In this document: in pieces, positions 4,111 to 52,828 of the stretch | How positions within the stretch are numbered: position 1 is the stretch's first letter | Layout of the letters: each line of letters starts with the position of its first letter | Assembly: GCA_964017235.1 (NCBI GenBank) | Contig: OZ024933.1 | Location: forward strand, 56,340,255-56,404,254 | From: Sabellastarte sp. h YS-2021 | Taxonomy: Eukaryota > Annelida > Polychaeta > Sabellida > Sabellidae | Direction of reading: 5' to 3' | DNA: 64,000 nucleotides | Notes under the pieces: model-generated | Databases searched by the model: none | Told to the model about the DNA's origin: nothing | Seen by the model: the letters and a program-made list of their open reading frames with translations, nothing else | Made by a program: the position numbers and the translations under genes

Positions 4111-4129
4111 AAAATATAAAGGACACAGG

Positions 4130-7425: not shown

Positions 7426-7554
7426 TCCATCTTGGTTTCTTGGGCCCCTTCTGACTGGCAAGTACTGTCAGGTACACATTCTCCTCCTGATTTTCGTCTG
7501 AGTCCCCCGCACAACTCACAATTGGAATATTATGCTCACTGTGACCTTTGACCT
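7426..7554 (-). CDS. Exon 5 of SH3/tyrosine-motif gene
   Basis: This 129-bp exon has a pyrimidine-rich acceptor (TTTTGCAG before 7554) and the donor GTGAGT after 7426. Only one frame is open. It starts with two bases that complete a codon with the last base of exon 4 (G+AG, Glu) and ends with one base. The 42 full codons are acidic in the middle and contain the tyrosine motif NVYLTVLASQKGPKKPRW, similar to an ITIM-like or SH2-binding YxxV site. It lies directly after the SH3 domain in the joined reading. The next exon is not visible; it should lie left of the window or be hidden among repeats. The protein family is not recognised. Confidence 0.65.
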
Positions 7555-8052
7555 CTGCAAAACAAAAAATAGTGTTTTTAAGTCCCCTTCACCAGCTAGC
7601 TAGGGGGAATATTTGAATGGGCCCAACCTTTCAAACATAGTAAAACATTCTATTAAATATGTAACTGCATCCTGGTAAAATTCTTACATTATTCTTACTA
7701 GTGTTCATGTTTTGATTTGCCTAAACATGGTCAACATATCCTCAATGTTGTCTTTTTAGAGAAATATTCTATAGTTGTTGATAACTGTGCAGTTAGGAAC
7801 TGTTTATGTGTACGGTTATTAGCAACCATCTTCTCTTTACATTTCTGACACTTTGGTACTTAAGATATTGTAGTCTCTCCTCAGAAGTTAATGTTTTTGA
7901 ACTCAATTGATGGGGACATGTTAAAATGATCTTTTGTAACTTATGGGTCATGTATGCTCATGGTTAAATATCCGTTTTCATTCATTTCATACTGTTTTAA
8001 TTTTACTTAACAGTCTGTCCAAAACTAAAACTACTTCAAACAAAAATAGCAT
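7555..8052. other. Intron sequence, no feature seen
   Basis: AT-rich sequence between exon 5 and the next repeat element. I see no exon, clear repeat or RNA gene here. Confidence 0.4.
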
Positions 8053-10335
8053 CAGAGATGCCCGTACCCCACAGCCTGGGGAAATATTTTTCAACACCAT
8101 GAGATAAAGAAGTAGTGTAACAGTACAAAGTTCAAGATACTTTCAGAGCAGTGTCAGTTATACTAAGGTCCAAATAATGCTTAAGTAGAGAAAATAATAT
8201 CCAAGGAAAAGAAATGTATGTAAAGATGAAGTATTAAAACAAGACAATTCAATAATAAAATGACAGCATTTATCAGTAAACCAAAAATGGTCGAATTATG
8301 GTTTGGATGTTTTGAATATTACCCATGCATACAGAAGTGGCAATACATTCAATGAATGCTTATGTGTGGTGTTGGAGAAAAGCCTGTGACTCACTTGATG
8401 AAATTCCATCTGTTACAACGGGAACTTGCAAAAGGAAATTCTTAATGAATTCTAATATGACTTTAACAGTGCTTAATCTGCATCAACAGACAGACCCAAA
8501 GGTGCAATAATATTTTAAAAGTCACTACAGCAAGGTCAAAGGTCAATCAGTGTCACACCATGACGTGGCACACCTAAAACCCTCAACCAATGTCCCTACA
8601 AATTATAAACTTCCTACACCTTACAGTCTCTGAGATATTGACCCTTTGCATCTTACGTCACAATGTTACGCATCATCGTTTGGACGGCAAAACATCACGC
8701 TTGAACGAACATGTCTGTAAAACAGACGGGATATATTGGAAGAAATACCTTATTTTAAAAATGAATTATAAAATAAATATGCATCTTATCGACTTCAAAA
8801 TTGCACACATGAAAGTACAAGCATTAGTCTATCTGGTCCATTTTGCAAAATAACATTAGGATGCATATTTGTCGAGATATAGAGCATTGAACTTGTAGTA
8901 AAATGCAAAATATCCGTTTTTTTATAATGTCTGTCCCAAGTACAGACAGATATAAAAATGTTAGGCCACAGAATAATTCTTTATTTTCATTTTACCGAAT
9001 TGTTGATTTCCTACTCATCAATATACTTTTTATAGAACAACAATGGACAAATTATTCAAAGAGAAATTTTCATTTAAATGTTGTGTACTTTCGATATATA
9101 TAATTTTGTGTAAGGTTTTCTCGATTGTAAGTGAAATCTAACAAATATTCGCATAAAATATCAAAATGACTGTTAATATTTTTAAAAGCTGTGCCTTCAT
9201 AAAGGAAATATATTTAGTATTATTTCCCTTTTTACAGAACTCAAATATATGATCTATAAAAGAAATTTAATTTTTTTTGTCAAAGTTCAGCAGTAATAAT
9301 CCTTTTTTTGCCGTCCAAAATGGACGTTGTTCACTGAAAACGTCATCCTGACGTCACATAATGACGTCGATGCAAAGGGTCAATAGCCAGGATAAGATTT
9401 TATAGGTCAAGTTCACTACAGCAAGATCAAAGGTCAAATCAAGGTCACACCATGACGTTGCACATCTACTACCCCGAAGCAATGTCCTCACCAAGTATCA
9501 GCTTCCTACACCTTACAGTTTCCGAAATATAGCCCAGACAAGATTTTATAGGTCAATGTCACTACGGCAAAGGTCAAATCAAGGTCACACTATGACGTTG
9601 CACATCTACACCCCCTAACCAATGTCCCTACCAAGTACCAACTTCCTACACCTTACAGTTGCTGAGATACACCCCGGACAAGGTTTTATAGGTCAAGGTC
9701 ACTACGGCAAGGTCAAATCAAGGTCAGACCATGATGTTGCACACCTACAACTCCTAACCAATGTTCCTACCGAGTATCAACTTCCTACACCTTACGGTTT
9801 CCGAGATATAGCCAGGACAAGATTTTATAGGTCAAGGTCACTACAGCAAGGTCAAATCAAGGTCAGACCATGACGTTGCACACCTACACCCCCTAACCAA
9901 TGTCCCTACCAAGTATCAACTTCCTACACATACGGTTTCTGAGATATAGCCTGGACAAGATTTTAAAGGTCAAGGTCACTACGGCAAGGTCAAATCAAGG
10001 TCAGACCATGACGTCGCACACCTACAACTCCTAACTAATGTCCATGCCACGTATCAACTTCCTACACCTTATGGTTGCTGAGATATAGCCCGGACAAGAT
10101 TTTCAAACTCAAGGTCACTACAGCAAGGTCAAAGGTCAAATCAAGGTCAGACCATGACGTTGCACACCTACACCCCCCAACCAATGTCCCTGCCAAGGAT
10201 GAACTTCCTACACCTTACGGTTTCTGAGATACAGCCCGGACAAACTATTTCCTGCCACCCGCCCGAACGCCCGCCCATTCGGACACCATGGGTGAAAACA
10301 ATACCCCGACAGCCCTTAAGGGCTGTGGGGTAAAA
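8053..10335. mobile_element. AAGGTCA-array element with terminal hairpin (copy 1)
   Basis: The left end has a small hairpin, ACCCCACAGCCTGGGG (8069 region), in a block that recurs at 10557. The core consists of ~140-150-bp units rich in AAGGTCACTAC and AAGGTCAAATCAAGGTCA, each with TATCAACTTCCTACACCTTA and GAGATATAGCC. The right end (10290-10335) is a near-perfect hairpin, TACCCCGACAGCCC facing GGGCTGTGGGGTA, followed by A's. The layout matches the other hairpin-ended arrays in this window. One unit carries a 746-bp insertion (8638-9383). Confidence 0.65.
8638..9383. mobile_element. 746-bp terminal-inverted-repeat element
   Basis: The ends are TTGACCCTTTGCATC and GATGCAAAGGGTCAA. The inverted similarity runs on imperfectly for about 60 bp through ACGTCA-containing sequence to TGGACGGCAAAA. 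The flanks, GAGATA on the left and TAGCCAGGA on the right, form GAGATATAGCCAGGA as found in intact neighbouring units near 9803, so the borders are exact. It has no coding capacity, so it is non-autonomous. The superfamily is not determined. Confidence 0.7.
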
Positions 10336-10556
10336 AACCATAGACACTAAACATTTAATAAATGAGGTTATGAGTAATATGAAAATATGTGCATGGTACA
10401 ATTCCATGATTAACTTTACTCAGTTACTTTTAAAATTCAGGTTGCTTTTTACATGTCTTGTTGTTAATTCTGATAAATTTTGAATTCTGATAAATGGGTT
10501 ACTGTTACTACAATTAAGCAGTAAATTAAATTAAAACAGTACATTAAAAAAGTCTT

Positions 10557-11115: not shown

Positions 11116-11235
11116 TTGCGTCTCGATGCAGTGTATGTGCCGGACGGGGCATGGTTGAAGCGTGACCTACAGAGTATTATGTTTTCATGTTTTCAGTAAT
11201 TTTTGGGAAGATTACAGATCACTGGCAAGTTAAGA

Positions 11236-13463: not shown

Positions 13464-13803
13464 AAAGGTCATACCAATACATTGCACGCCTACACCTGCT
13501 AATCCATGTCCATACCAAGTTTCAACTTCCTATACCTTATAGTTCTGAGATCATATAGCCAGGACAAGATTTTCAAACTCAAGGTCACTCAGCTTAGGTC
13601 AAAGGTCAAATGAAGGTCACATCATGATGTTGCACACCTGCACCCCCCCAACCAATGTCCGTATCAGGTATCAACATTTTATACATGAGATTTTTCTGAG
13701 ATACAGCGAAGATAAGTTTTTTCTTGCCACCCAAACGCGTGCCCATGCAGATGCCATGGGTGAAATGAATACCCACAGAACCTTTAAAGCCTGTGGGGTA
13801 AAA
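13464..13803. mobile_element. AAGGTCA-array element, right part (copy 3)
   Basis: Two AAGGTCA units are followed by the conserved right end: GCCACCC, CATGGGTGAAA, and a degraded hairpin TACCCACAGAACC / GCCTGTGGGGTA. The left part is missing. AGGTCAAAGGTCA is present at 13596. Confidence 0.6.
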
Positions 13804-14916: not shown

Positions 14917-15031
14917 CAACTTGCACATCGACCAGATGACTTTTGGGGATCCAGCCTTCGCATGGCTTTGATTCCTCCCCTTCTTTCAGACACATCAAAC
15001 AAAATGCCCGCGTAGCTTCATCCTCTGTAAC
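14917..15031 (-). CDS. Exon 4, C-terminal half of SH3 domain
   Basis: This 115-bp exon has the acceptor TTGTTCACAG and the donor GGTAAGG. It begins in phase 0 (VTEDEATRAF) and ends with one base that pairs with the two leading bases of exon 5. The 38 codons include CEGWIPKSHLVDV, which matches the end of an SH3 fold (Gly-Trp-x-Pro, then a hydrophobic strand). With exon 3 it gives an SH3-sized domain of about 65 residues. The usual Trp pair of the RT/n-Src region is replaced by FCLMCL, so ligand binding may be atypical. SH3 domains bind proline-rich peptides; the gene's own PPKKP and PVSPKPK stretches are possible partners (inference). Confidence 0.7.
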
Positions 15032-15885: not shown

Positions 15886-15896
15886 TATTGCCTTAC

Positions 15897-15986
15897 CTTT
15901 ACAATGTCATCTTTACTTGCTGGCATACCCTCGGAGTGATTGTTCTGTGGACTGTAATCTTGAATCAACTGGCAGTACTTGTCAGG
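15897..15986 (-). CDS. Exon 3, N-terminal half of SH3 domain
   Basis: This 90-bp exon is 30 codons in phase 0 at both ends. The acceptor is CTGTTTTAG and the donor is GTAAGG. It reads PDKYCQLIQDYSPQNNHSEG and continues to SKDDIVK. This resembles the start of an SH3 domain: a hydrophobic strand with DY, then a polar loop, then the D-D-I-V strand. It joins exon 4 in phase. The first 36 bases are part of a 62-bp tandem repeat that runs back into the intron (15951-16255). Confidence 0.7.
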
Positions 15987-16255
15987 CTAAAACAGTGCAC
16001 ATAGTTTCATTGAATGTAATCTTGTATCAACTGACAGAACTTGTCACTCTAAAACAGTGCACATAGTTCATTGAATGTAATCTTGTATCAACTTACAGAT
16101 CTTGTCAGGGTAAAACAGTGTACATGGATTCATTGACTGTAATCTTGTATCAGCATGCAGTACTTGTCAGGGTAAAACAGCATACATAGTTCCACTGACT
16201 GTAATCTTGTATCAACGGACAGAGCTTGTCATGGTAAAACAGTGTTCATTGACTC
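15951..16255. repeat. 62-bp tandem repeat made from the exon 3 splice acceptor
   Basis: There are five units of about 62 bp, each containing TGTAATCTTGTATCAAC, a CAGNNCTTGTCA-like core and TAAAACAG. Unit 1 includes the first 36 bases of exon 3 and its acceptor. Unit 2 keeps a TTTTAG acceptor-like sequence, whereas units 3-5 have TTTTAC instead. The duplication therefore started from, or includes, the intron-exon border. Confidence 0.8.
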
Positions 16256-17200: not shown

Positions 17201-17517
17201 GGCTATAAGTTTGTTTTCATAATTATATTTTAATTACTATGCAATAGTGTATAAAGTTGTGCGTTTTTGAATTGTTTGCTTTACCTTGATTCAGAAAAAG
17301 TATATCTTTGGAGAAAAAAACAAGCAATCAGTGCCCGTGAACGGGCTCTGTGTCAGCTGACTGTGTTTTGAGTTTCAGAGTAGAAGTGACAGAAGAAAAG
17401 GACACAAAAGTTGTGCCCTGGAAATGGTATTCAGAAGGAAAGTAACAAGGTAACTGACTACTAACTGTTAAGGTGTAAAAAGTAGGTTAAAACATATTTA
17501 AAGATAATACTGCAAAT
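17201..17517. other. Intron, ending in a remnant of a tandem-array unit
   Basis: Nothing is recognised up to about 17478. The last 40 bases (AGTAGGTTAAAACATATTTA onward) match the start of a GTAGGTGAATAACATATTT array unit whose continuation lies at 31802, beyond DIRS-A1. Confidence 0.55.
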
Positions 17518-17706
17518 TTGAAAATTTTAATTACTTAAATGTAGCTTTTATAAGCTACAAGCTTACCATGTTGGACTCATTGCTGTTCTCGGATGGCCAC
17601 AAGGCATCATGGCCAACGTCTAAGAAAAATAGACATTTATAGTTGGCCGTAGCCTCTCGTTGTCGTCACGTGATAACTTCTGACCAATCACCCTACTTTC
17701 TCGTTG
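17518..17706. repeat. DIRS-A1 left inverted terminal repeat
   Basis: It is inverted relative to 31637-31801. Shared blocks include CGGATGGCCACAAGGCATCA, GGCCAACGTCTAAGAAAAAT and CCCTACTTTCTCGTTG. It contains CACGTG (17667 region), which the right repeat has lost. DIRS-A3 at 63316 is nearly the same. Confidence 0.85.
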
Positions 17707-17764
17707 AAATTTTCTAAAACCTACCCCTCAGCTGTAAACAGCGGGGAGGCAGGGTGGGACTCTT

Positions 17765-17862
17765 CTCAGTCCCACATGGTAAGCTTGTAGCTTATAAAAG
17801 CTACATTTAAGTAATCAAAATTTTCAATTTTATTACGCTACAATAGCTTACCATGTGGGACT
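17765..17862. repeat. DIRS-A1 internal complementary region
   Basis: The first half (GTCCCACATGGTAAGCTTGT onward to TAAGTAAT) is the reverse complement of the outer left end. The second half (TTATTACGCTACAATAGCTT onward) is the reverse complement of the outer right end. The two meet at TTTTCAATTTTATTA. In DIRS elements this region serves to join the two ends into a circle during replication, so it is a diagnostic mark of the class. Confidence 0.85.
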
Positions 17863-18276
17863 CAATGCTGAATCCAACCGCCCGGTGGCGGGATTACAGC
17901 TGAGACTGGAAGATATATCGATTTTTCTTAGATTTGAAGTAATATATATCAGAAAGAGTGTTAGAAATACTAGTCTGAGTCCCGAAGACTGGGCCTGTAA
18001 AGAGCCAAAAACCTAAATAGAATGGAAGATAGTGCTAAAAACTGTCTAGATGTTTTGATTGTAGGACGGAAGTGCAGCAGTGCTCACTTAGAGGTCTAAG
18101 GGTCCTTAGGGGCCTTTCACGAGTGACAAACCAGCCCAATGGTTGGAATTCTCATAAAATTTTTGCCACCGAATATGAGATTAATGACAACTTTAATAAG
18201 TCCTTAATACATATTATATTTGATAAACTAAAAACAGAATAACCTTACCCGTAACATCTTGAAGGTAAAACTATAC

Positions 18277-19450
18277 CTAGATCCTGGGATTAGACTCTGA
18301 AGACTTGGTTGTAGCGGATGTGCCCCCCCCCCCCCCCCCCCTTTTTTCTTTCCGAGGACAACTGGTCTGAGGGGAAGGATCTAGGACTTGTTGTGCTGCC
18401 ACCACTGGTCCCAGATACATATTGTTGTCATTGTCTGACCAAGTAAGGTCTTTTAGGTAAAAATTTGTTAATGTGTTTTGAGCTTTCCAGTGACAGGCTT
18501 GCATGATTTGGTCCACCGATACCCCACCGTAAAAGGCCTCAGAGGCTGCGAAGGCCCGAATGTCATGCACTTTAACTTGGACCAAGTCCAAGGCTTGTTG
18601 ATCTGCTTGTTTATAACAAAGTAGAATAGTTTGTTTCAACCAGGAAGAGAGAGTAGCGGGTCTGATGTCTGAGGTATGTCCTTTCTTGAAGGAGATGAAA
18701 AGGAGGGATCGAGACCCTCTCAGGTCTTTGGTTCGATCCAAACAGTACCTCAGGGCCCGCACCGGACACAGGGTCCTGTCTTCTTTGAATTGTCTATCTA
18801 CAATGGTAGTCAAAGCAGGAATAGTCACCGGAGACACACTTTGAGAACCTTCTCTTGCTAGTTGGTTTTTGGCTATAAAGTCAGAAGAAGGGAACAAGGC
18901 AACCTTTTCCCATTGGCCTAGATTAGATACTTTGTTTGCAACCCAGGCATGGATTTCGCTGCGGTGCTTGCCAGAGGCCAAAGCTAGCAAGAAAGCAGTT
19001 TTGAAAGTAAGATGTTTGAGGTCTGTGTCTTTCATAGGCTCAAAGGGTGCTTTTGTTAGCTCATTAAGAACAACAGAAAGGTTCCACTTAGGAAGATTCC
19101 TGGGACAGGAGATACGTACAGTGTAAGTTTGATCCCTATGAAAGCTGGAGAGTAACCTATGAAGGTCTGAACTTTGTGCAATATGGTGGCCCATTGGGCC
19201 CAAAGTGTCCACAATGGCCGTCCTGTAACCATTGATGGTCGAGGGGCGCCTGTTTAGATCTTGGTACAGGTACATGAAAAAGTCTGAGACTTGTTTCACA
19301 GATGGAGTGGAGAAGTCCACCGAATTTTCTCTGCACCATTTCTCAAATAAGGCCCACTTTGAATTGTAGATGGTTCTTGTTGATGACCTCTGAGGTGCAG
19401 CAATTCTCTCTGCCTCCTCCACAGAGAAGCTTTGTTCTTGGAGCTGTCCA
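18277..19450 (-). CDS. DIRS-A1 tyrosine recombinase
   Basis: This is the integrase of the element: it joins circular element DNA to the target by a tyrosine-DNA intermediate. The N-terminal region (RSSTRTIYNSKWALFEKWC onward) matches the SAM-like core-binding domain. The catalytic set is visible: Arg in GKHRSEIHAW near 18962, His-x-x-Arg in VHDIRAFAAS near 18560, and the nucleophile Tyr in TNFYLKDLTW near 18457. The C-terminus holds a Gly run encoded by a C-homopolymer at 18321-18341. The frame overlaps the RNase H frame by about 150 bp, as in DIRS1. It is open through to the stop at 18277 and may be intact. The exact start is uncertain, because an upstream deletion fuses this frame with that of the reverse transcriptase. 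Confidence 0.85.
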
Positions 19451-20202
19451 CTCCTAGACACCAGGCGTGGAGGTTGAGATGCTGTGGATTGCTGTGGAAC
19501 ATATAATTGTGGGACTGTTTGAGAAGAGTCGTTGACACCAGAAGTTGCAGTGGGATCTCTGTTGAGCGCTGCACTAGGTCCCAAGACCAGGGCATCCCTG
19601 GCCAGCCTGGGGCTATTACAATGATCAGGCAATAGCATTGCCTGATTTTTTGGATCACCCTGTGAAAGAGAGCCGTCGGAGGGTAAGCATAGGCAGTGAG
19701 ACCCGTCCAGTTTATGTTCAGAGCATCTATGTCCCAAGCCTTTGGGTCTGGGACAGGAGATAAGTACAGTGTAAGTTTGTGGTTCAGATGAGTGGCAAAT
19801 AAGTCTACATGAGGTGTGAACCACTTTTGGCAGATCTGTTTGAACACCTGCGGATGCAGTGACCATTCTGTTAACTGCACTTGGTTTGACCTGGACAGAA
19901 GGTCGGCCATCACATTCAGACACCCTGGAATGTATCTGGCTTTCAATGTTATGTGATAGTGATGGCACCAGGTCATGATCTTCCACAGGAGAGCACACAT
20001 CTCTGCTGAGTGAGTTCCTCCTTGTTTGTTTATGTAGGCTACCACTGTTGAGTTGTCCGTTGCAACTAGCACTGTTTGGTTCTGGCACTGGTCCTTGAAG
20101 CTTCGTAGGGCCAGGGAGACCGCCTTCAATTCTAGGACGTTTATGTGTAGCCTTTTTTCCCAGTCTGACCACAGACCCTTTGTAGAACTTTGATCTAAGT
20201 GA
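19296..20202 (-). pseudogene. DIRS-A1 RNase H domain and linker
   Basis: The true RNase H frame reads VLVATDNSTVVAYINKQGG, then LLWKIMTW, then ARYIPGCLNVMADLLSR, giving the acidic residues expected of RNase H. It continues into HVDLFATHLN...PDPKAWDIDALN, a stretch common between RNase H and recombinase in DIRS elements. It ends at 19296. It has lost its link to the reverse transcriptase because eight bases are missing at 20203 compared with DIRS-A2 (GAAGGCTGGGACGCTCACTT there). Without them, translation from the reverse transcriptase side leaves this frame. Confidence 0.8.
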
Positions 20203-21086
20203 GCCTTCGTTTGAGGTGTCTGTAAAGAGTTGGATACTGTGGTCTTTGGGATGAAGGTCTGTACCTTTCATCACATTTGAGGGATTTTGCCACCAGTCTA
20301 AGTGGGCTGCAATGGCTTCTGTCCAAGGAAGGAGGCTGTTCAGTGACTGAGGATATCTCCAGTGCTCCTTGAGATGAAACTGAAAGGGACTCATGTGAAG
20401 GCGTCCCTCCGGGACCATTTTCTCCATTGAGGCAAGCAACCCAATTAGCGACATCAAACATCTTGCAGTCAAAACACGTTTTGACTTGAGTCGTAGGATC
20501 AAATCCTGAAGTTTGAGCCATCTCTCTTGAGTGGGTTTTCCAAGGGCTGAATCTAGGTGGTATTCGTAGCCCATGAACGAAAACACCTGAGTAGGTTTCA
20601 GTTCTAATTTTTCCTGATTTATTATCCAACCCAAGGACTGGGTTAGATCTACCACTGCTTGAGTGTTTACTTGGGCTTCCTCCTGAGACTGGGAGCTGAT
20701 CGGCCAGTCGTCCAGGTATTGGTGAAGTCTGAGTCCTCTGGAGAGGGCCATTAGCTTCACTTTCTTTACAATCATTGTAAAGACCTGGGGGGCTGTGGCT
20801 AGTCCGAATGGGAGGGAGGTGAACTGGAACACCTGAGACTTGTAGCAAAACCTTAGGTATTTCCTTGAGGTTGGATGGATGGGGATGTGCAGGCAATTGT
20901 CCGACAGATCTATTGACGATACCCATTCCCCTGGAATCAGGGAGGTCCTGATGGACTCTGGAGTTTCCGTTTTGAACTTTTCTATGTGTAGAAAAGTGTT
21001 GAGCCTGCTTAAGTCTATGACTGGCCTCCACCTTTGGTGAGGCTTGGGTACTAGGAACAGGCGACAGTAAAACCCGAGAGATTTGT
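20203..21086 (-). pseudogene. DIRS-A1 reverse transcriptase (5' cut by insertion)
   Basis: The frame is open from the insertion border near 21086. Motifs in order are LFLVPKPHQRWRPVIDLSRL, VSSIDLSDNCLHIPIHP (first catalytic Asp), FTSLPFGLATAPQVFT, and HQYLDDW (20712-20723, the Y-x-D-D box). This is the Ty3-related reverse transcriptase typical of DIRS. The N-terminal part lies beyond the nested DIRS-C, at 26384-26526. A frameshift at its end (see the RNase H entry) disables the polyprotein. Confidence 0.8.
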
Positions 21087-21134
21087 CGCAAGTAAAAGAA
21101 TGACTTGCGGGGAGGCGGGAGGAAAATTTGAGTC

Positions 21135-21222
21135 TTAGGAAATGGTAAGTATTTCTAATAAAAATTTAAATTACTATTAAATTTTCCAATTTTATAGCGA
21201 AATACCCTTACCATTTCCTAAC
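21135..21222. repeat. DIRS-C internal complementary region
   Basis: TAGGAAATGGTAAGTATTTC is followed, after an AT-rich joint containing TTTTCCAATTTTATAGCG, by AAATACCCTTACCATTTCCT. The second half is the reverse complement of the right terminus at 26350-26383. The joint has the same form as in DIRS-A and DIRS-B. Confidence 0.7.
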
Positions 21223-32389: not shown

Positions 32390-33770
32390 TTCCACAGGTT
32401 GGTTTGAAGCTCTCCCAAAAGTAGGTGAATGAGTTATTTGAGAAAAATTGGCCATCTGCAATACTTCTAGAGATAATTCGCATATACTCATTTTCAGTAG
32501 GCGAGTAATTAGCTATGGGTCTGAAACTTCACTATGTGAAGGCCCTTGCAAAAGTAGGTGAATGAGTTATTTGAGAAAAAATTGGCTATCTGCAATACTT
32601 TTCAGAGATAATTCGCATTTACTCATTTTGAGTAGGTGAGTAATTAGCTATGGGTGTGAAACTTCACCAAGTGAAAGCTCTCCCAAAAGTAGGTGAATGA
32701 GTTATTTGAGAAAAATTGGCTATCTGCAATACTTTTACAGATAATTCGCATTTACTCATTTTCAGTAGGTGAGTAATTAGCTATGGGTCTGAAACTTCAC
32801 CAAGTGAAAGCTCTCCCAAAAGTAGGTGAATGAGTTATTTGAGAAAAATTGGCTATCTGCAATACTTTTAGAGATAATTCGCATTTACTCATTTTGAGTA
32901 TGTGAGTAATTAGCTATGGGTCTGAAACTTCACCAAGTGAAAGCTCTCCCAAAAGTAGGTGAATGAGTTATTTGAGAAAAATTGGCTATCTGCAATACTT
33001 TTACAGATAATTCGCATTTACTCATTTTCAGTAGGTGAGTAATTAGCTATGGGTCTGAAACTTCACCATGTGAAAGGTCTCCCAAAAGTAGGTGAATGAG
33101 TTATTTGAGAAAAATTGGCTATCTGCAATACTTTTAGCGATAATTCGCATTTACTCATTTTGAGTAGGTGAGTAATTAGCTATGGGTGTGAAACTTCACC
33201 AAGTGAAAGTTCTCCCAAAAGTAGTTGAATGAGTTATTTGAGAAAAATTGGCCATCTGCAATACTTTTAGAGATAATTAGCATTTACTCATTTTCAGTAG
33301 CTGAGTAATTAGCTATGGGTCTGAAACTTCACCATGTGAAAGCTCTCCCAAAAGTAGGTGAACGAGTTATTTGAGAAAAATTGGCTATCTGCAATACTTT
33401 TAGCGATAATTCACATTTACTCATTTTCAGTAGGTGAGTAATTATCTATAGGTCTGAAATTTCACCATGTGAAAGCTCTCCCAAAAGTAGATGAAGGAGT
33501 TATTTGAGAAAAATTGGCTATCTGCAATACTTTTACACATAATTCGCATTTACTCATTTTGAGTAGGTGAGTAATTAGCTATGGGTCTGAAACTTTATCA
33601 AGTGAAAGCTCTCCCAAAAGTAGGTGAATGAGTTATTTGAGAAAAATTGGCTATCTGCAATAGTTTTAGAGATAATTCACATTTACTCATTTTGAGTAGG
33701 TGAGTAATTATCTACGGGTCTGAAACTTCACCATGTCAAAGCTCTCCCAAAAGTAGATGAATGACTTAAA
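32390..33770. repeat. ~134-bp tandem array (about 10 units)
   Basis: Units carry AAAAGTAGGTGAATGAGTTA, TTTGAGAAAAATTGGCTATC, TGCAATACTTTTAGAGATAA and GTGAGTAATTAGCTATGGGT. The same family recurs at 54530-55620. Confidence 0.9.
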
Positions 33771-34760: not shown

Positions 34761-34977
34761 GAAATAACAGCATCAAATGAAAGGACATAAGCAATAAGGT
34801 CATCAAAAACATTGAAAAGGCCAAGGAGAAACAACCAGTGTGATGTACAGCCCTTTTAATTATAAAAGCGTGACACACACTCAATAACACACGAACACAC
34901 GCACACACGCACGCACGCACGCACGCACACACGCACGGAATGCGTTTTATAATCTCCCGCCCGGCCGGCGGAAGATA

Positions 34978-36168: not shown

Positions 36169-36346
36169 CTCTGGTTTAGTTCTGACAACATTCATGTATC
36201 CGTCCTGTGTAGAAGCCTTGCCTTTTCCATGGACTGGCTCTCCTTTTGGTTTTGGTGATACTGGTGGCACTTCTACATCACTGTATGTCACTTTATCCTC
36301 AGACTCTCTGATTTTAAAGCGAGGGGGTTGGGCCTTAGTGGCACCA
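36169..36346 (-). CDS. Exon 2 of SH3/tyrosine-motif gene
   Basis: This 178-bp exon has the acceptor TTCTCTTTCAG and the donor GAG|GTTTGT (weak but GT). It starts with one base that completes a Ser codon with exon 1 (AG+T) and ends in phase 0, which fits exon 3. The 59 codons include KVTYSDVEVPPVSPKPKGEP and DGYMNVVRTKPE. The tyrosines sit in SH2-type contexts (YSDV; YMNV, where Asn at +2 favours Grb2-like SH2 domains), and PPVSPKPK is a possible SH3 ligand. This supports a role as a phosphorylated cytoplasmic scaffold or receptor tail. The family is not recognised. Confidence 0.7.
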
Positions 36347-37244
36347 CTGAAAGAGAAGACAACAAACGTGTTTGTAAAATTTATAAACTGCTGTTGTTAA
36401 AAGTGAGATAAAAGTCTCAAGTTTAAGATAATTGTCACAATATTGTGACAAAATTGATGCTCAGATGAAATGAAATTCACAAAAGGCTGATTTTTAATCT
36501 ATGTGTGGTAATGTTAACTTTAAAGATTTTCAAAAAGGTCTTCAGTTATTACGATCATACACTTTTGCATTTTCTAGAAAATATTTCATAAATTTGAATT
36601 ATGTTAGGGACCTTTTGTAAAGTCACTTTTTCTAACTATAAAATATTCTCATAACTTAATAAAACGTTTCATTCACATAAAGTTTCCATTCCTCAACAAT
36701 TTTTGAAATGGCAGATTCGTAAAGAGATTTTCAAAATAGCAAATTCAGATTTGACAGGTTTCACTTAATACACCCCAGTTCCAATCCATACTGTCCTGAT
36801 CAAGTTAAGACTGGAATGTAATCTTATTGGTCCTATTTACTTATCGTTTAACTTGTAAAGGTCAGGAAAGTAAGAACGGCGATCACAGATACTTGTCCAG
36901 GTTTTAAACACACAAGTGAGCACTTTTGTTCCCAGTAGTTATGATTGATCCTTTTGGTTGTAATTGACTTATGAATTATCTCTGTGATGCTACATCTTAT
37001 CCTTAGGTTTTAAAGTTTAATGTCTTTGTGGTATTGTGGCCATTCTGTGCATTTTTCTATGAAAATGGACCTGAGTGAATTTGTCTCTTGAGAATCTTAG
37101 TGGCATAAATATGCTGACTGATGCACAAGTTGTCATGGTTTGGTGGTACATGAATGACTGATTTATATAGTTTCGCACCTAGTACTTTGTTTCGGTTCTA
37201 TTGCCGCGATGGGACCACCATATAAGGGATCATCTGAGTAATAG
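36347..37244. other. Intron, no feature seen
   Basis: AT-rich unique-looking sequence. No exon, repeat or RNA gene was recognised. Confidence 0.4.
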
Positions 37245-37370
37245 TATATACCCCGCCCATACCTGGCCAAGAACTCAGAAAACCACTCATTGCAGTTCTA
37301 ACTAAGCTCGGTGCTGCTTAACTTCACTGAACATTCAGAAACTGGTCAAGCTATACCACATAGGCAGATA
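37245..37370 (-). pseudogene. 5S rRNA-derived sequence
   Basis: Read on the minus strand, GAAGTTAAGCAGCACCGAGC and TTAGTTAGAACT, then ATGAGTGG, follow the order of the conserved 5S rRNA internal promoter and loop region (GAAGTTAAGC, GGGC, GTTAGTACT, ATGGGTG). Weaker matches continue both ways: CTTGACCAG on the 5' side and CCAGGTATGGGCGGGG on the 3' side. It is too diverged and carries too many small gaps to be a working 5S gene. It could be a pseudogene or the head of a 5S-derived SINE. No oligo-T stop was found. Confidence 0.65.
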
Positions 37371-37639
37371 GCTTGGTGTTACAACTAATTTTTATGAATC
37401 CTTTTTGGAGCAGGTTGTAAGGTCGATTTTTTTGGTCGCAAAACACTTACCATTTTTACAAATTACATCTTTTACTAGCTTTTTGACCTTTTTTTCAACA
37501 CGAATTGTCATAGCAGCCTCCAAGGGCAGTACTCACTAACATGGGTAAAGATCTGATCAGCATCAGATCAAATTTCAGAAAAAACTTTCAAGTGAACCAT
37601 GGATCAAATAGCTATTCACATACCATGGATCACTTAAAC

Positions 37640-37830
37640 TCGAAAATTTTAATTACTTAAATGTAGCTTTTATAAGCTACAAGCTTACCATGTGGGACTG
37701 AATGCTAACTCGGGAGGCCGCAGGACTCCAGCCAACGACCAAGAAAAATGGACGTTTGGAATTGACCGAGTCCATGGTTTAGTATGTACCATAGCAGTTT
37801 CGTTTGGTAATTCGTCCTTCTTCTCTCGTG
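37640..37830. repeat. DIRS-A2 left inverted terminal repeat
   Basis: It begins TCGAAAATTTTAATTACTTA and is inverted relative to 51618-51790. Confidence 0.8.
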
Positions 37831-38154
37831 GTAAATTTAGCCCATACCCCCTCAGCTGAAATATAGCGGGGAGGTAGGGTGCCACATGGTAAGCTTGTAG
37901 CTAATAAAAACTACATTTAAGTAATTAAAATTTTCAATAAAATTTTCAAGAAAAATGGACGTTTGGAATTGACCGAGTCCGTGGTTTAGTATGTACCATA
38001 GCAGTTTCGTTTGGTAATTCGTCCTTCTTCTCTCGTGGTAAATTTAGCCCATACCCCCTCAGCTGAAATATAGCGGGGAGGTAGGGTGCCACATAGTAAG
38101 CTTGTAGCTAATAAAAACTACATTTAAGTAATTAAAATTTTCAATTTTATTGCG
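37741..38154. repeat. ~207-bp tandem duplication across terminal repeat and complementary region
   Basis: AAGAAAAATGGACGTTTGGA occurs at 37741 and again at 37948, and the following ~200 bases are nearly the same. Each copy ends with the first half of the internal complementary region (GTAAGCTTGTAGCTAATAAA). Only after the second copy does the other half follow (TTATTGCGCTTCAATAGCTT, 38145 onward). Confidence 0.85.
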
Positions 38155-38515
38155 CTTCAATAGCTTACCATGTGGCACTGAATGCTGAATTCAACCGCTC
38201 TGTGGCGGGATTACAGCTGAGACTGGAAGAATGTTTTCCATTTTTCTTGAATTTAGAATTTAAAAATATACCAAAGTCCCAGTTACAGAGCCCCAGTTTT
38301 AAAGTCGGGTAAGTAAGTAGCCAAAAACCGAAATTTAATGAATGACAGTACGGGTACTGTCTGGATGTTTTGAAAGAAGAGAGTGCAGCCGTGCTCACTC
38401 AAGGTAGTAGCCCCTAAATGCATCACTGCTATAATAATACAGCCCTAGGCTTGAATCTCATCAATTTTGCCACCCTAAATGTGAGATTATGGTACACTGA
38501 TAAACACTAAAGACA

Positions 38516-39700
38516 TTATACAGTTAAAAATATAAGAGACCTTACCGTAAGCATCTGGAGAGGTAACCAATACCTGGACCCTGGGCTAGACTCCTGAAGA
38601 CTTGGCTGCAGCGGGTGTGCCCCCCCCCCCCCCCTTTCTTTTCTTCCCGAAGATGAGTATGCTGAGGGGAAGGGTCTAGGACTTGTTGTGCCGCTACTAC
38701 TGGTCCTAGATACATATTGTTGTTGTCTGACCAAGTAAGGTCTTTCAGGTAAAAAAGTGTGTGAGCTTTCCAGTGACACGCTTGCATGATTTGGTCCACC
38801 GATACCCCACCGTAAAAGGCCTTAGAGGCCGCAAAGGCCCTAATGTCATGCTTTGACTTGGACCAGGTCCAAGGATGATGATCTGCTTGTTTATAACAAA
38901 GTAGGATGGTTTGTTTAGATAGGAAGACAGTGTAGCGGGTCTGATGTCTGAGGTATATCCTTTCTTAAAGGGGATAAAAAGAAGGGCTCGAGACCCTCTT
39001 AGGTCTATGGTTCGATCCAAATAGTACCACAGGGCCCGTACCGGACATAAGGTCCTGTCTTCCCTGAATTGTCTATCTACAATGGTAGTTAGAGCAGGAA
39101 TAGTCACCGGAGACACACTTGAGAACCTTCTCTTGCTAGTTGGTTTTTGGCTATGGAATCTGAAGAGGGGAACAAGGCAACCTTTTCCCATTGGCCTAGA
39201 TTAGATACCTTGTTTGCAACCCAGGCATGGATTTCGCTGTGGCGAGCAAGGCTAGCAAGAAAGCAGTTTTGAGAGTAAGATGTTTGAGGTCTGTGTCTTT
39301 CATAGGCTCAAAGGGTGCTTTTGTAAGCTCACTGGGAACAACAGAAAGGTTCCATTTAGGAAGATTCCTGGAACTTTTGGGACGATCCCTGTGAAACTGG
39401 AGAGTAACCTGTTGAGGTCTGAACTCTGAGAGATATGGAGTCCCGTTGGGGCCAGGGTGTCAATAATGGCTGTCCTAGAACGGTTACCATCAATGGTCGA
39501 AGGGCGCCTGTTTAGATCTTGGTACAGGTACATAAAGAAGTCTGAGACTTGCTTTACAGAGGGAGTGGAGAAATCCACCGAATTTTCTCTGCACCATTTC
39601 TCAAATAGGGCCCACTTTGACTTGTAGATGGTCCTTGTTGACGATCTCTGAGGGGCAGCAATTCTCTTTGCCACCTACACAGCGAAGCCTTGTTTTAGAG
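38516..39700 (-). pseudogene. DIRS-A2 tyrosine recombinase, frameshifted
   Basis: It is homologous to the DIRS-A1 recombinase in pieces: RSSTRTIYKSKWALFEKWC (39640-39590), RTLCPVRALWYYLDRTIDLR (39060-38990), MDQIMQACHWKAHTLFYLKD (38799-38745, with the nucleophile Tyr). The His-x-x-Arg region near 38850 is disrupted, and several short indels shift the frame. A C-run at 38619-38633 encodes the Gly stretch. Confidence 0.75.
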
Positions 39701-40730
39701 CTGTCCACTCCTAGATACCAGGGGTGGAGGTTGAGATGCTGTGGATTGCTGTGGAACACATGATTGTGGGACTGTTTGAGAAGAGTTCTTGACACTGGAA
39801 GTTGAAGTGGGATCTCTGTTGAGAGCTGCACTAGGTCCCAAAACCAGGGCATCCCTGGCCAGCCTGGGGTTATTACAGTGATTAGGCAACTGGATTGCCT
39901 GATTTTGGATCACCCTGTGAAGGAGAGCCATGGGAGGGTAAGCATAAGCAGTGAGACCCGACCAGTGTATGTTCAGAGCATCTATGTCCCAAGCATTTTG
40001 GTCTGGGACTGGAGACACGTATAGAACTTTGTGGTTCAGGTGAGTGGCAAAAGATCTACATGAGGAGTGAACCACTTGAGACAGATCTGTTTGAACACCT
40101 GCAGATGCAGTGACCATTCTGTTGATTGGACTTGGTTTGACCTGGACAGAAGGTCGGCCATCACATTCAGACACCCTGGAATGTATCTGGCTTTTAAGGT
40201 TATCTGGTAAAGATGGCACCAGGTCATGATCTTCCACAGGAGAGCGCACATCTCCGCCGAGTGGGCTCCTCCTTATTTATTTATGTAGGCTACTATTGTT
40301 GAGTTGTCTGTAGCAACCAACACTGTTTTGTTTAAACACTGGTCCTTGAACCTTTGAAGGGCCAGAAAAAACACCTTCAGCCCTAGAACATTTATGGGTA
40401 GAATTATTCCCCGGTCTGACCACAGATACTTGTAGAGGTTTGCTCTAAGTGAGCGTCCCAGCCTTCGTTTGAGGCGTCTGTAAAAAGTTGGATACTGTGG
40501 TCTTGGGATGAAGGTCTGTGCCTTTCATCACGTTTGTGGGATTCTGCCACCATTCTAGGTGTGCTGCAAGGCTTCTGTCCAAAGAAGGAGGCTGTCCAAT
40601 GACTGAGGAAATCTCCAGTGCTCCTTGAGGTAAAACTGAAAGGGCCTCGTGTGAAGGCTTCCCTCCGGGACCATTTTCTCCGTTGAGGCAAGCAACCCAA
40701 TTAGGGACATCAAACATCTTGTAGTCAAAA
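39700..40730 (-). pseudogene. DIRS-A2 RNase H region (copy 1; copy 2 at 41487-42517)
   Basis: Fragments read FTDASNEGWDAHLEQ (40480 region), MCALLWKIMTWCHLYQITLK and ARYIPGCLNVMADLLSRSNQ, then the DALNIHWSGLTAYAYPP linker, in shifting frames. This copy keeps the GWDAH codons that DIRS-A1 lost. It ends at GTCAAAA, where DIRS-B begins. Confidence 0.75.
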
Positions 40731-41004
40731 TTGCAAATTTAATAAGTAAATTAAATTTTTATAAGTTAATACCCTATCCAATGGACAATTGCTTTACCAG
40801 TTGGCGCAACCGGTCCCGCCAAACGCCAGAAAAAGACGTCCTGTATATAATACCGGCAGGACCGGTCAGTAGTGTGCATTCGCTAGGTGGCGCATCATAC
40901 TTGCTTCCTGTCTGGACAAAGTGACGTCAGTTCATCTTTTTCGTTGTCTAAACAGATTTAGACCCCTAGTAAGCTGGTAGCGGGGTTGGTTGGGAGGGCC
41001 TTGC

Positions 41005-41101
41005 CTGTCCATTGGATAGGGTATTAACTTATAAAAATTTAATTTACCTATTAAATTTGCAATTTTATTGCGTTAATACATCCTATTCAATGGACAATTG
41101 C
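41005..41101. repeat. DIRS-B internal complementary region (second copy at 42792-42888)
   Basis: TGTCCATTGGATAGGGTATT, to AATTTACC, mirrors the outer left end. TTATTGCGTTAATACATCCT, to ATGGACAATTGC, mirrors the outer right end. They join at AAATTTGCAATTTTATTG. Confidence 0.85.
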
Positions 41102-43299
41102 TGAATAACTACCGCTTGGTCGGAGGGTAAGTTACTAGGGACTTAGGTGAACTCATAAATGATAAGAAAATTCCCTCTGGCCTAGGTTAACTTTCAGTCA
41201 GGAACCTGTAGGCCCTTGGTCGGATACCAGTGCCCGGTTGCCGGGGGTATACCGACGTTTCCTAGAACGGTTACCATCAATGGTCGAAGGGCGCCTGTTT
41301 AGATCTTGGTACAGGTACATAAAGAAGTCTGAGACTTGCTTTACAGAGGGAGTGGAGAAATCCACCGAATTTTCTCTGCACCATTTCTCAAATAGGGCCC
41401 ACTTTGACTTGTAGATGGTCCTTGTTGACGATCTCTGAGGGGCAGCAATTCTCTTTGCCACCTACACAGCGAAGCCTTGTTTTAGAGCTGTCCACTCCTA
41501 GATACCAGGGGTGGAGGTTGAGATGCTGTGGATTGCTGTGGAACACATGATTGTGGGACTGTTTGAGAAGAGTTCTTGACACTGGAAGTTGAAGTGGGAT
41601 CTCTGTTGAGAGCTGCACTAGGTCCCAAAACCAGGGCATCCCTGGCCAGCCTGGGGTTATTACAGTGATTAGGCAACTGGATTGCCTGATTTTGGATCAC
41701 CCTGTGAAGGAGAGCCATGGGAGGGTAAGCATAAGCAGTGAGACCCGACCAGTGTATGTTCAGAGCATCTATGTCCCAAGCATTTTGGTCTGGGACTGGA
41801 GACACGTATAGAACTTTGTGGTTCAGGTGAGTGGCAAAAGATCTACATGAGGAGTGAACCACTTGAGACAGATCTGTTTGAACACCTGCAGATGCAGTGA
41901 CCATTCTGTTGATTGGACTTGGTTTGACCTGGACAGAAGGTCGGCCATCACATTCAGACACCCTGGAATGTATCTGGCTTTTAAGGTTATCTGGTAAAGA
42001 TGGCACCAGGTCATGATCTTCCACAGGAGAGCGCACATCTCCGCCGAGTGGGCTCCTCCTTATTTATTTATGTAGGCTACTATTGTTGAGTTGTCTGTAG
42101 CAACCAACACTGTTTTGTTTAAACACTGGTCCTTGAACCTTTGAAGGGCCAGAAAAAACACCTTCAGCCCTAGAACATTTATGGGTAGAATTATTCCCCG
42201 GTCTGACCACAGATACTTGTAGAGGTTTGCTCTAAGTGAGCGTCCCAGCCTTCGTTTGAGGCGTCTGTAAAAAGTTGGATACTGTGGTCTTGGGATGAAG
42301 GTCTGTGCCTTTCATCACGTTTGTGGGATTCTGCCACCATTCTAGGTGTGCTGCAAGGCTTCTGTCCAAAGAAGGAGGCTGTCCAATGACTGAGGAAATC
42401 TCCAGTGCTCCTTGAGGTAAAACTGAAAGGGCCTCGTGTGAAGGCTTCCCTCCGGGACCATTTTCTCCGTTGAGGCAAGCAACCCAATTAGGGACATCAA
42501 ACATCTTGTAGTCAAAATTGCAAATTTAATAAGTAAATTAAATTTTTATAAGTTAATACCCTATCCAATGGACAATTGCTTTACCAGTTGGCGCAACCGG
42601 TCCCGCCAAACGCCAGAAAAAGACGTCCTGTATATAATACCGGCAGGACCGGTCAGTAGTGTGCATTCGCTAGGTGGCGCATCATACTTGCTTCCTGTCT
42701 GGACAAAGTGACGTCAGTTCATCTTTTTCGTTGTCTAAACAGATTTAGACCCCTAGTAAGCTGGTAGCGGGGTTGGTTGGGAGGGCCTTGCCTGTCCATT
42801 GGATAGGGTATTAACTTATAAAAATTTAATTTACCTATTAAATTTGCAATTTTATTGCGTTAATACATCCTATTCAATGGACAATTGCTGAATAACTACC
42901 GCTTGGTCGGAGGGTAAGTTACTAGGGACTTAGGTGAACTCATAAATGATAAGAAAATTCCCTCTGGCCTAGGTTAACTTTCAGTCAGGAACCTGTAGGC
43001 CCTTGGTCGGATACCAGTGCCCGGTTGCCGGGGGTATACCGACGTTGCCCCCCCCTTTTAACAGACCTGCTCTGTGGTAGGGGAAGAGAGGGATGAGTTC
43101 AGTCCCAGAAGGCAATAACCTCCCAAAGGCAGGAGTGTAGTTAGCTCCAAAAACTATCAACACTACATATATACAAATCTCAATATAAGGGCTAATTGTG
43201 GATCTGCTGAGCAGCCACAACTGGGCCCAATTGAAGGGTCTCTGAAACAGCCCAAGCCACATCCTTCAAATAGAACTGTGTGAAGGTGTTGTTACTTCA

Positions 43300-49080: not shown

Positions 49081-51000
49081 ATTGCGTTCTTTGACAGAAG
49101 AGACTGGATACAAGAGGTCAGAGCTTGTTCTTTGAAGGGCCTTGTAACCTGATAGAATCAGTGGAGCTCTGACCAATTTGGTTTGAGATGAATGGAAGAA
49201 TGTAACCATTGGTGATAATGTTTAGCACGTTGTCTGAACATTTGTTTGTGAGCCAGTCTTTTCTGAAAGAACGGAGGCGACCTACTGGTGGACTGAGGGA
49301 GGCTTGAAAGGAGTTATAGGAGGAGGGGTTTCCATGCCCTCGTCCCTTGAATGGGGTCGAAAGAGACCCTTGAAGCCTCTTAAGTTTGATTTCCCCCTAC
49401 CTGAGGAAAACGATTGGTTACTGCTTGAGAGGAATTTGCCCCCATAGTAGTGTTTCCTGTAGGAGCCTCATTCTATTGTGGTGGGGAACACGAAAGGGGA
49501 ATTTGATAGGGTCTAAAAGCCCTGTGGGTCTTTGGGGTGCCTTAAGGAGGAAGTCTTCTCCATCCTTGACTAATTGTGACTTGAATAGAGGAAAAGGCCA
49601 AAAAGGGCGAATTCCTGAGTTCTTGATATCTAGAATCCCCTAGATGTGATTGAAGGAGGGTTATGTTGGCCCCATGTCCTAGCAAGCCAGAGTTTGCCCA
49701 CTGTATACAATTCCCTCTGGAGGATATGGGCTACAGACGGTTTAGGAGAGATACAGATCTTGGCAAAATCTATATTGAGCTCCTGAAGATTGTCCTCAAA
49801 AACAAGGTTGTCTCACCTTGTAACAATTTGCTGTTGAAGTAGGGGTTTATAAATTTACCCTCAGGTAAATTGGAGGCCAGGGAGACCTATTCAAATATTT
49901 TAAAGATATCTTTGAGGTATGGACTTTGAGGGAGCATAGCTAAAGGGCCTCTTGGCCTGAGCTGCTGTTGCTCTTTCATCACCCAGGACCAGCATGGTAG
50001 ACGAGGACCTAAGCAAGTTTTCCTGGGTCAGGAAAAGGAAGAACATGCCGAAGGTCTACTTCTGTATGCTATGAAGGTAGGTCAGACATATCTACCTCCC
50101 TGTTGCTGGTCATGTTCAGCAGGAGCCTGTTGAGGCTTTAGAGGAACGCACCCCTTGAGGTCGTTCCAAGTGATCGGATTGGGGATCCGAGTAATCGGAT
50201 TGGGTCCAACCATCCAAGTGCTTGGATTCAGGATCCAAGTGCTTGGAGCCATGGTCGGACTGAACACTCTGGGTAATATGCAAGTAAGATTCCAAGTTGG
50301 ATCTGACCATCCGATTGATTGGATTCAGGATTCGAGTGCTTGGAGCCATCCGACCATCTGAGTGATTGGATTCAGGATCCGAGTGCTTGGAGCCATGGTC
50401 GGACTGAACACTCTGGGTGATATGCAAGTAAGATTCCAAGTTGGATCTGACCATCCGAGTGATTGGATTCAGGATTCGAGTGCTTGGAGCCATCCGACCA
50501 TCCGAGTGATTGGATTCAGGATCCGAGTGCTTGGAGCCATGGTCGGACTGAACACTCTGGGTGATATGCAAGTAAGATTCCAAGTTGGATCTGACCATCC
50601 GAGTGATTGGATTCAGGATTCGAGTGCTTGGAGCCATGGTTGGATTGTGGATCCGATCATCCGAGTGATCGGATGCAATTGGAAATAAAACCAGGCATCA
50701 TATTGGAAGGGAGATCTGGTCCACCTCCCATCCAAGTCAAAGATTGACTTGGCCAGGATTAGGGTTCGAAACTCTGAACTAATGCAGAGAATAAGTTAAA
50801 AGAGGAACCCCATGAAGCAAATTTAGGAGGGCAATGCAAAAGAGTGACACTTCCTGAAATGAAAGAGTGCATTAAATAACATAATAAAATATACGTATTC
50901 TCACCAAGAATTGTACAGACAAAATTCTAGACATTTAGATAAAAATAACTAATAAAACAGCACAAGGAAAAGGACTTGCTATTGCCTAACCAACGTCACG
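49081..51000 (-). pseudogene. DIRS-A2 Gag-like region, decayed, with repeat expansion
   Basis: 49081-50110 aligns block by block with DIRS-A1 26384-26526 and 29108-30380 (for example CTTTTCTGAAAGAACGGAGG against CTCTTCTGAAAGAACGGAGG). Beyond 50150 a tandem repeat replaces the Ser-rich Gag segment. Frames are broken throughout. Confidence 0.7.
50155..50680. repeat. 144-bp coding-phase tandem repeat in Gag (3 units)
   Basis: On the minus strand three near-identical 48-codon units stand in one open frame (50637 to 50116). In another frame each has the pattern SDHGSKHSDPESNHSDG. The unit length is a multiple of three, so expansion kept the frame open. Inside each unit a shorter word (ATCCGAGTGATTGGATTCAG) recurs. 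Confidence 0.8.
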
Positions 51001-51617
51001 CAACCAGAGTTGGTGACCCTAGAATGGCAAGCACCTGTTGTGCAGAAGAAGACGTTGAGAACAAAGACTTGTATTTGTGCTTTATTTCATATTTAAACCC
51101 TATAAATGGACCAATCATGTAGCAGATAGGGGTTACATTATTTATTTTATATTATTTCGACAGGTACAGGACCTGCATATAAGCTACATAGTTACACGAG
51201 TTGGACGTCTAATGTTTTCTTCAAAACGAAGACGAATCGGAAGTTTGGAAAAGAAATTCCGACATCAAACACTCAAATTTGTGCTTTATTTGAAATTTAA
51301 ACTCTTTCAATGGTCCAATAATGTAGCAGATAGGGAATAAACCCTCAAAATATTTTATTTTATTTCGACAGGTACTGATCCTGTATATAAGCTACATGTA
51401 CATGTCGGAAGTTCAACTTGTTTCTTCACGACTTGACCCGGAAGTGGATTAAATTGTAAAATATGTTAGATATACTTATCTGTTCTGTGATTTGTCACAA
51501 AAATAGGATTTTATATATATATATAAAGAGAAATTGATGTAGTTTCAGTATCCGACGACAAGTATATCTTGAGAAAACAGTAAAATATTGTGAATTTATT
51601 TCAACGCTTTATAAGAT

Positions 51618-51790
51618 GGGGGCCAACGAGAGAAGAAGGACGAATTACCAAATGACACTGCTATGGTACATACTAAACCACGGATTTGGTCAAACCCAAA
51701 CGTCCATTTTTCTTGGTCATTGGCTGGAGTCCTGCGGCCTCCCGAGTTAGCATTCAGTCCCACATGGCAAGCTATTGTAGCGCAACTGAA
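51618..51790. repeat. DIRS-A2 right inverted terminal repeat
   Basis: Reverse complement of 37640-37830. The extreme end (GTAGCGCAACTGAAAAG) has diverged from the AATAAAA seen in DIRS-A1 and DIRS-B. Confidence 0.8.
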
Positions 51791-52615
51791 AAGATTAAAT
51801 ATTTGATCTGTTTTTTTTTATTATTTCTCACAATTTTGAGTAGAGTTCTTCATCACTCAGGAAATCCTAACGGTTAATTCAATCATGATGAAGTCCCCTC
51901 TGGCTCTGTAACTACTGCTTAAAACATTCCTTGAGAAATCTTGTGAATCAGCCTCTTTCGTATCTGTCTGGATCCAAAAGTTAATCCATTAAAGTGCATG
52001 TATCACAGTTGATCAATAATTGATCAAAAGATAATATCAAGTGTTTTGTGAATACCAATCTGAGATGACCCAAAAATCTGTTCAAAACTTGATCAGTTTG
52101 TTCAATTATGATCTGATCTTTACTGTATTTGGTGAATACTAGTCACGCGATTATATATAATTATGAACATCTGAATATAAAATAATGTATATGCCTGAAT
52201 TTCAATAAGTATTAATATCAATATGATCATTTCCAGTACCTGTCATGAGACTTTTCAAAACAGTCCAATAGTTTATCACATCATGATCATCAATATTCAA
52301 ACATTAGAAGATTTATTCTGAGATTACTCTACATGAAATTGAATCGCTATAGCCAGTCTGTGTTAAATTAATGAGTAAGTTTAGTATATGTTCTGCGTTA
52401 ACAAATCAGTTTTTTTTTGCATGAAACAATATTTCAATATAACTGATGAATATGCAAAGCAAAATTAGAGTTTGATATCAATATAAAATAATTAAAGATG
52501 CATTTCAATCCCTACACTAGTGAATACTGCCCCTCAGTTGTAAACTGGCTAGCTCTTGCAATAAGCCTTGGAACTGGGTTATAAAAAGCACCACAATATA
52601 ACACCATGAATATAC
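51791..52615. other. Intron between exon 1 and DIRS-A2
   Basis: AT-rich, with many TGATCA/GATCAA words also found left of DIRS-A2 (37550-37635). It looks like one old TGATCA-rich repeat split by DIRS-A2. No exon seen. Confidence 0.45.
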
Positions 52616-52828
52616 CTCTGCTGCTCCTGAGAAAACTCAATCTCACAATAACTTAGGTGAGATAGGCCAGGCTTTTTGGGTGGCACCGCAGGTTTATCTT
52701 TGAGCGAGTACAAAGCATCCTCATCGTATTCGTCACCCTCAGAGATGTGTTTCTGAAGTGGTTTGGATTTGGCCTTCACTTCTACCGTGGCATAGAGTTC
52801 CGATAGAGACATGCGGTGAGATGAATTC
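52616..52828 (-). CDS. Exon 1 (first visible) of SH3/tyrosine-motif gene
   Basis: This 213-bp exon has the acceptor TTTCTATTCCAG and the donor AGAG|GTATAT. It starts with one base and ends with two, which fit exon 2. The 70 codons contain SLSELYATVEVKAKSKP, EYDEDALYSLKDKPAVPPKK and LSYCEIEFSQEQQ: three tyrosines in SH2/ITIM-like settings (YATV, YSLK, YCEI) plus the SH3-ligand-like AVPPKKP. It is not the start of the protein, because an acceptor precedes it and more exons must lie to the right. Tyrosine-motif tails of this kind are seen in invertebrate scavenger and immune-type receptors and in adaptors; the sequence alone does not decide. Confidence 0.7.

Follow-up and report, generated by a model that had tools for sequence, protein, structure and literature searches.

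Within a 64,000-nucleotide window of contig OZ024933.1 from the annelid Sabellastarte sp., five short minus-strand segments (E1 to E5; Table 1) appear to be coding exons, adjacent or nearly so, of one animal adaptor-type gene whose introns are filled with repeats. Judging from the DNA alone, we put the probability of this reading at about 0.85. There is a good probability that the gene model is real, and the gene would be of an ordinary rather than a new kind. The segments had been proposed by an earlier inspection of the letters (here, the sequence-only reading), and their borders hold to the base: each is preceded by AG and followed by GT, and all four junctions between them are compatible in phase (2+1, 0+0, 0+0 and 1+2 bases from E1 to E5), as had been claimed. 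Joined, they form 725 nt, or 241 codons, that are free of stops in one frame and contain many stops in the other two. All five have a G+C content of 43–49%, compared with 29–37% in their 150-base flanks, and no second copy of any of them occurs within the window, except for the start of E3.

Exon signal against chance

Candidate exons were scored in the 21,265 bases left after 42,735 of the 64,000 had been masked by hand because they were tandem repeats or looked like transposons. A strict scan required an open AG-to-GT segment of 90–300 nt with an acceptor score of at least 3.5, a donor score of at least -0.5 and an exon score of at least 10 bits. The exon score combines the splice sites, for which the acceptor and donor matrices took textbook animal consensus values, with amino-acid composition; the 10-bit threshold was placed just below the 10.1 bits of E1. 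Five acceptor loci passed on the minus strand: E2 (15.9, the highest-scoring exon outside the masks), E5 (15.3 with a longer donor, 11.4 with the donor of the sequence-only reading), a segment at 13638–13790 (15.0), E4 (11.8) and E1 (10.1). The plus strand gave none; an 84-nt plus-strand segment at 52905–52988 scores 11.1 and falls just below the length cut. Across 300 third-order Markov simulations the mean was 0.083 loci and the maximum 2, against 5 on the real minus strand.

E3 misses the strict scan owing to its weak acceptor. Loosening the scan (36–300 nt, acceptor at least -2) makes the contrast less sharp. At scores of at least 7.5 it gives 16 minus-strand and 4 plus-strand loci, where the simulations average 2.3 and reach at most 11; at scores of at least 9.6 there are 10 minus-strand loci, where the simulations average 0.72 and never exceed 4. 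When ranked against all AG or GT dinucleotides on the strand, the acceptors of E1, E2, E4 and E5 fall within the top 0.4–2.3% of AG sites (E1 1.2%, E2 0.4%), and the donors of E1 to E5 rank at 8.2%, 11.9%, 0.05%, 1.6% and 3.9% of GT sites, respectively.

Two exon ends are uncertain. A shorter E3 that starts at 15944 outscores the start given by the sequence-only reading (9.5, compared with less than 7.5 for the full exon); it would lose the first residues of the SH3 domain described below, where the profile match begins at residue 4 of a 68-residue piece, and we regard the exact start as ambiguous. Because the frame of E5 continues for 13 codons past the donor after 7426 to a TGA at 7387–7385, E5 could be a terminal coding exon. 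A better-scoring donor lies 37 bases further on, after 7389, so its 3′ end may be either of the two donors or the in-frame TGA. Neither AATAAA nor ATTAAA was found as a polyadenylation signal downstream of this stop, in 7387–6901.

The sequence-only reading had added that no reading frame of more than 71 codons reveals the gene, and that gene finders would probably miss it. The longest exon does measure 71 codons, but the stop-to-stop frames around the exons are 51 to 109 codons long. The expectation about gene finders is unsupported: at 90–213 nt the exons are somewhat shorter than the mean of 232 bp given for the Manila clam in PMC5499747 and of similar order, and that genome was annotated by RNA sequencing together with spliced predictors, according to the same source. 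Three of the four introns, at about 7 to 20 kb, far exceed the clam mean of 1,230 bp stated there; E1 and E2 are separated by about 16 kb and E2 and E3 by about 20 kb.

Table 1. Putative exons and associated features of the window (positions on the forward strand; position 1 is the first letter of the window)
Feature	Positions	Strand	Content and evidence
E1, putative coding exon	52616–52828	−	YATV, YSLK, PPKKP, YCEI; splice sites, strict scan, G+C contrast
E2, putative coding exon	36169–36346	−	YSDV, PKPK, YMNV; splice sites, strict scan
E3, putative first half of SH3	15897–15986	−	Pfam match with E4; weak acceptor, very strong donor
E4, putative second half of SH3	14917–15031	−	GWIPKSHLV; Pfam match with E3, splice sites, strict scan
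E5, putative coding exon	7426–7554	−	YLTV; splice sites, strict scan; 3′ end ambiguous
Candidate extra exon between E1 and E2	37179–37262	−	phase-compatible (1/2), tyrosine-rich, open; YGRGIYYYSDDPLYGGPIAAIEPKQST
62-bp tandem array	15953–16244	−	4.7 copies, 84% matches; Tandem Repeats Finder

An SH3-like domain, its splice border and the tyrosine motifs

E3 and E4 had been predicted to join into an SH3-like domain, and comparison with Pfam agrees. Translated together as a 68-residue piece, they match SH3_2 (PF07653, Variant SH3 domain) at 24.0 bits (E 3.2e-5; cut-off 21.8) over profile positions 1–52 of 55, and a 72-residue version scores 23.7 bits. The match exists across the splice only, as neither E3 alone nor E4 alone has a Pfam match at E up to 10. 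Within 1 kb, 18 phase-compatible pairs with sites as good as those of E3 and E4 occur on the minus strand and none on the plus strand; at 3.2e-5 for each pair, about 6e-4 chance matches to any Pfam model are expected. The joined E1 and E2 (130 residues) matched no Pfam family, and E5 matched only AKAP_110, far below its cut-off.

The nearest solved SH3 domains in the Protein Data Bank (PDB) to the 68-residue query are those of yeast myosin-3 and myosin-5 and of kalirin (Kalirin-9a), at E 0.075 to 1.4, with alignments over residues 10–64, 14–63 and 21–63 of 68, respectively. The kalirin match is lost with a 62-residue query, and the whole 241-residue join has two PDB matches, both to myosin-3, at E 0.49. 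This likeness would reflect a shared fold family and nothing further. In the HMMER alignment with the myosin-3 domain, EGW and the proline that follows it are kept, whereas the W of GWSL faces the F of AFCL in our sequence and the Y of TAYM faces the H of KSHL; relative to both myosins, four residues are inserted ahead of EGW. Read by eye, Q seems to stand where the ALYDY-type motif has its first tyrosine. In human Src, the hydrophobic pocket of the SH3 domain is formed by Y93, W121, P136 and Y139, as listed in PMC8152464. The canonical PxxP-binding pocket is therefore incomplete here, with F in the tryptophan column and H in the last tyrosine column, and with the proline kept.

These substitutions bear on a further suggestion of the sequence-only reading, that the product is a scaffold able to bind itself. 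PxxP-like stretches do exist, but the pocket lacks the tryptophan and one tyrosine; self-binding through PPKKP or PKPK is possible and not favoured, because the pocket aromatics are changed.

The short motifs noted earlier are all present in the translation (Table 1), and those of the Y..[VI] type are commoner than in shuffled peptides. Of the nine tyrosines in the 241 residues, five are followed at +3 by V or I (YATV, YCEI, YSDV, YMNV and YLTV); YSLK has K at that position, which is not hydrophobic. When the peptide was shuffled 20,000 times, 0.135% of the shuffles reached at least five Y..[VI] motifs; this measure was picked after the peptide had been seen. YMNV presumably fits the Grb2-type pYxN rule, and LSYCEI and VTYSDV might be read as inhibitory motifs.

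From the translated exons, the product is probably a short, mostly disordered protein of the adaptor type, in which tyrosine motifs and proline/lysine stretches would be followed by one SH3-fold domain and then by another tyrosine motif. Tyrosine kinases may phosphorylate the tyrosines of the YxxV/I motifs and so recruit SH2 proteins, and the SH3 fold might anchor the protein by holding a partner or a membrane, perhaps not through PxxP. Translation from an in-frame ATG in E1 at 52812–52810, a possible start codon, would yield 249 residues if E5 is translated through to its in-frame stop; alternatively, the protein would extend past the window at either end.

Known cytosolic adaptors offer a functional parallel only. 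ADAP carries a YxxV motif, YDDV (PMC2908683), and the SH3 domains of ADAP and Caskin1 are described as lacking canonical pocket residues and binding lipids (PMC8152464; PMC7830187). ADAP/FYB1 and PRAM1 likewise combine YxxV motifs, proline-rich stretches and an SH3 without the canonical pocket residues; no sequence similarity to them is shown, and the part of the gene seen in the window has one SH3 only. For Caskin1, PMC7830187 reports that key aromatic residues of the pocket are lost, that lipid is bound and that no proline-motif partner is known; the other Caskin domains are unmatched in E1–E5, and here too no sequence similarity is shown. The helically extended SH3 of the ADAP/PRAM1 family, in which an N-terminal amphipathic helix packs on the domain, has a model in Pfam. 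That model was absent from the Pfam matches at E up to 10 (only SH3_2 and a sub-threshold CLN5), a negative that is limited by the HMMER filters, which drop weak matches. Companion domains of the Src-like or HACS1-like kind (SH2, kinase or SAM) do not occur in E1–E5, and the gene may extend past the window.

The border between the E2–E3 intron and E3 lies within a 62-bp tandem array (Table 1), the unit of which comprises the end of that intron plus the first 35–37 bases of E3 and is no multiple of three. The copies read HDKLCPLIQDY, PDKYCMLIQDY, PDKICKLIQDY and SDKFCQLIQDY, and E3 itself reads PDKYCQLIQDY. One of the four upstream copies, the one beside E3, has an AG at the matching place (acceptor before 16048), and this decoy scores -1.56, compared with -1.71 for the acceptor of E3. 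In the phase of E2, the decoy opens 13 codons and then a stop, and all 18 listed AG sites upstream of 15986 reach a stop in that phase. It is highly doubtful that the copies of the array act as rival 3′ splice sites, at which poison splicing to the decoy would turn off an SH3 isoform whose domain acts through lipid or other non-PxxP contacts. The tandem-duplicated acceptor/exon border within an SH3 exon is nevertheless the most unusual detail of the gene, and worth a later look. Among the titles listed by a few searches, confined to open-licence papers, none was on this gene or on duplicated acceptor borders.

Alternative explanations

Several observations weigh against a single gene made up of E1 to E5. 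The masks, thresholds and tables behind the scans were chosen after the exons had been seen, some of the masks are transposon-like by eye only, and exons inside masked repeats might have been missed. The acceptor of E3 is unremarkable (28.6% of the AG sites on the strand are equal or better), and further AG sites, within the array or next to it, match or exceed it (16100, -1.05; 16264, 1.92). Within the whole join the SH3_2 score drops to 20.0 bits, and within a 277-residue variant, to which the candidate extra exon and the tail of E5 were added, to 19.7 bits, both below the cut-off. Under loose splice-site demands, phase-compatible pairs number 25,342 on the minus strand and 5,939 on the plus strand; from the former, about 0.8 chance matches to any Pfam family would be expected, but only about 3e-5 to SH3_2 itself. 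The weak structural matches also include a chain of tryptophan synthase, which is not an SH3 protein, at E 0.64. No relatives of the E1 or E2 peptide were found in viral_contigs, as expected (16 and 11 pattern matches, respectively).

The main rival, which we consider unlikely, is that the exons encode the cytoplasmic tail of a larger receptor, with its membrane and outer parts upstream of the window and the ATG of E1 an internal methionine. One base precedes the first full codon of E1, the frame stays open upstream of that ATG, and YxxV/I motifs are common in receptor tails; however, an SH3 within such a tail would be unusual, and no convincing coding exon appears in the unmasked sequence of the 11 kb upstream of E1. 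A similarly low probability attaches to the idea that only E3, E4 and some of their neighbours belong together, with E1 and E2 or E5 derived from another gene, or with extra exons in between. The distances from E1 to E2 and from E2 to E3 leave room for this, as do the phase-compatible candidate between E1 and E2 and the masking of much of both introns, in which exons went unscored in the strict scan. Set against it, all five segments share one strand and all phases agree, which would happen in 1 in 81 cases by chance with frames and borders fixed, and between E1 and E5 the strict scan of unmasked sequence otherwise gives only a repeat copy.

A decayed pseudogene, the exons of which are open yet unused, seems improbable: the weakness of the E3 acceptor, its position inside the array together with a decoy that scores about the same, and the invasion by repeats might suggest decay, but 241 codons run over five exons without a stop or frameshift and the other acceptors are good. 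Hardly credible is the view that these are chance open segments picked by eye. Many open segments were free to be chosen, and with loose sites a Pfam match this good is expected about 0.8 times, whereas none of the simulations exceeded two strict loci and the SH3 match arises solely across the splice. On the reading that we prefer, five exons of one adaptor-type gene, the case indicates that an animal gene of five exons can be pieced together by a reader from raw DNA, in the right phases, through 45 kb of repeats. It adds one probable SH3/tyrosine-motif adaptor and raises no new mechanistic question.

Further candidate exons and surrounding repeats

The candidate extra exon between E1 and E2 is kept as a lead only and is not significant alone, because loci scoring at least 9.6 occur 0.72 times per simulated set; no second copy of it was found within the window. 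Its upstream flank was suspected to resemble a short interspersed element derived from 5S rRNA, but 36900–38200 gave no match to Rfam 5S at E up to 1. The segment at 13638–13790, which has strong sites and is phase-compatible between E4 and E5, was rejected as a copy of the repeat at about 10130–10336 (72% identity over the exon, 76% with flanks). No convincing exons were found in the unmasked parts upstream (52829–64000) or downstream (1–7425). The highest phase-compatible score downstream, 16.8 at 111–403, belongs to a segment with weak sites inside a 224-codon frame (3–674) that runs off the window; this frame is retrotransposon-like by eye, and Pfam gave no family for it. A short segment at 7118–7153 (12.3) is in the wrong phase for both E5 donors. 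Over the whole window, Rfam at gathering thresholds gave 0 matches and ARAGORN 0 genes.

The introns contain a DIRS-like element with RVT_1 (3.6e-15) in the frame 18277–21165 and RVT_3 (1.4e-4) in the overlapping frame 19296–20267; its tyrosine-recombinase-like part and the DIRS label were assigned by eye. A divergent second copy is present (17724–20474 compared with 38055–40730, 83%). Also in DIRS-like sequence, two abutting copies of 1,787 bp (39473–41259 and 41260–43046) are 100% identical, which reflects either tandem duplication in the very recent past or an artefact of the assembly. Upstream of E1, a plus-strand reverse transcriptase frame (59153–59959; RVT_1, 4.1e-19) is LINE-like by eye.

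Many satellite arrays occur in the window. Clams have such elements too: satellites are given as about 10% of the Mercenaria genome, and Ngaro/DIRS elements as 0.2–0.3% of it, in PMC8905726. On their own, the repeats would thus fit the mollusc origin assumed by the sequence-only reading, but they are no proof of it. A 133-bp satellite forms two arrays about 21 kb apart, at 32407–33768 and 54528–55562, the inner copies of which are mostly more than 90% identical, and more distant relatives of these arrays lie at 2591–6934 and 55778–57343. A dispersed repeat at 17512–18182 and 63310–64000 is 93% identical over 693 bp between the two sites, with related pieces, some of them inverted, near 31.7 kb and 37.7 kb.

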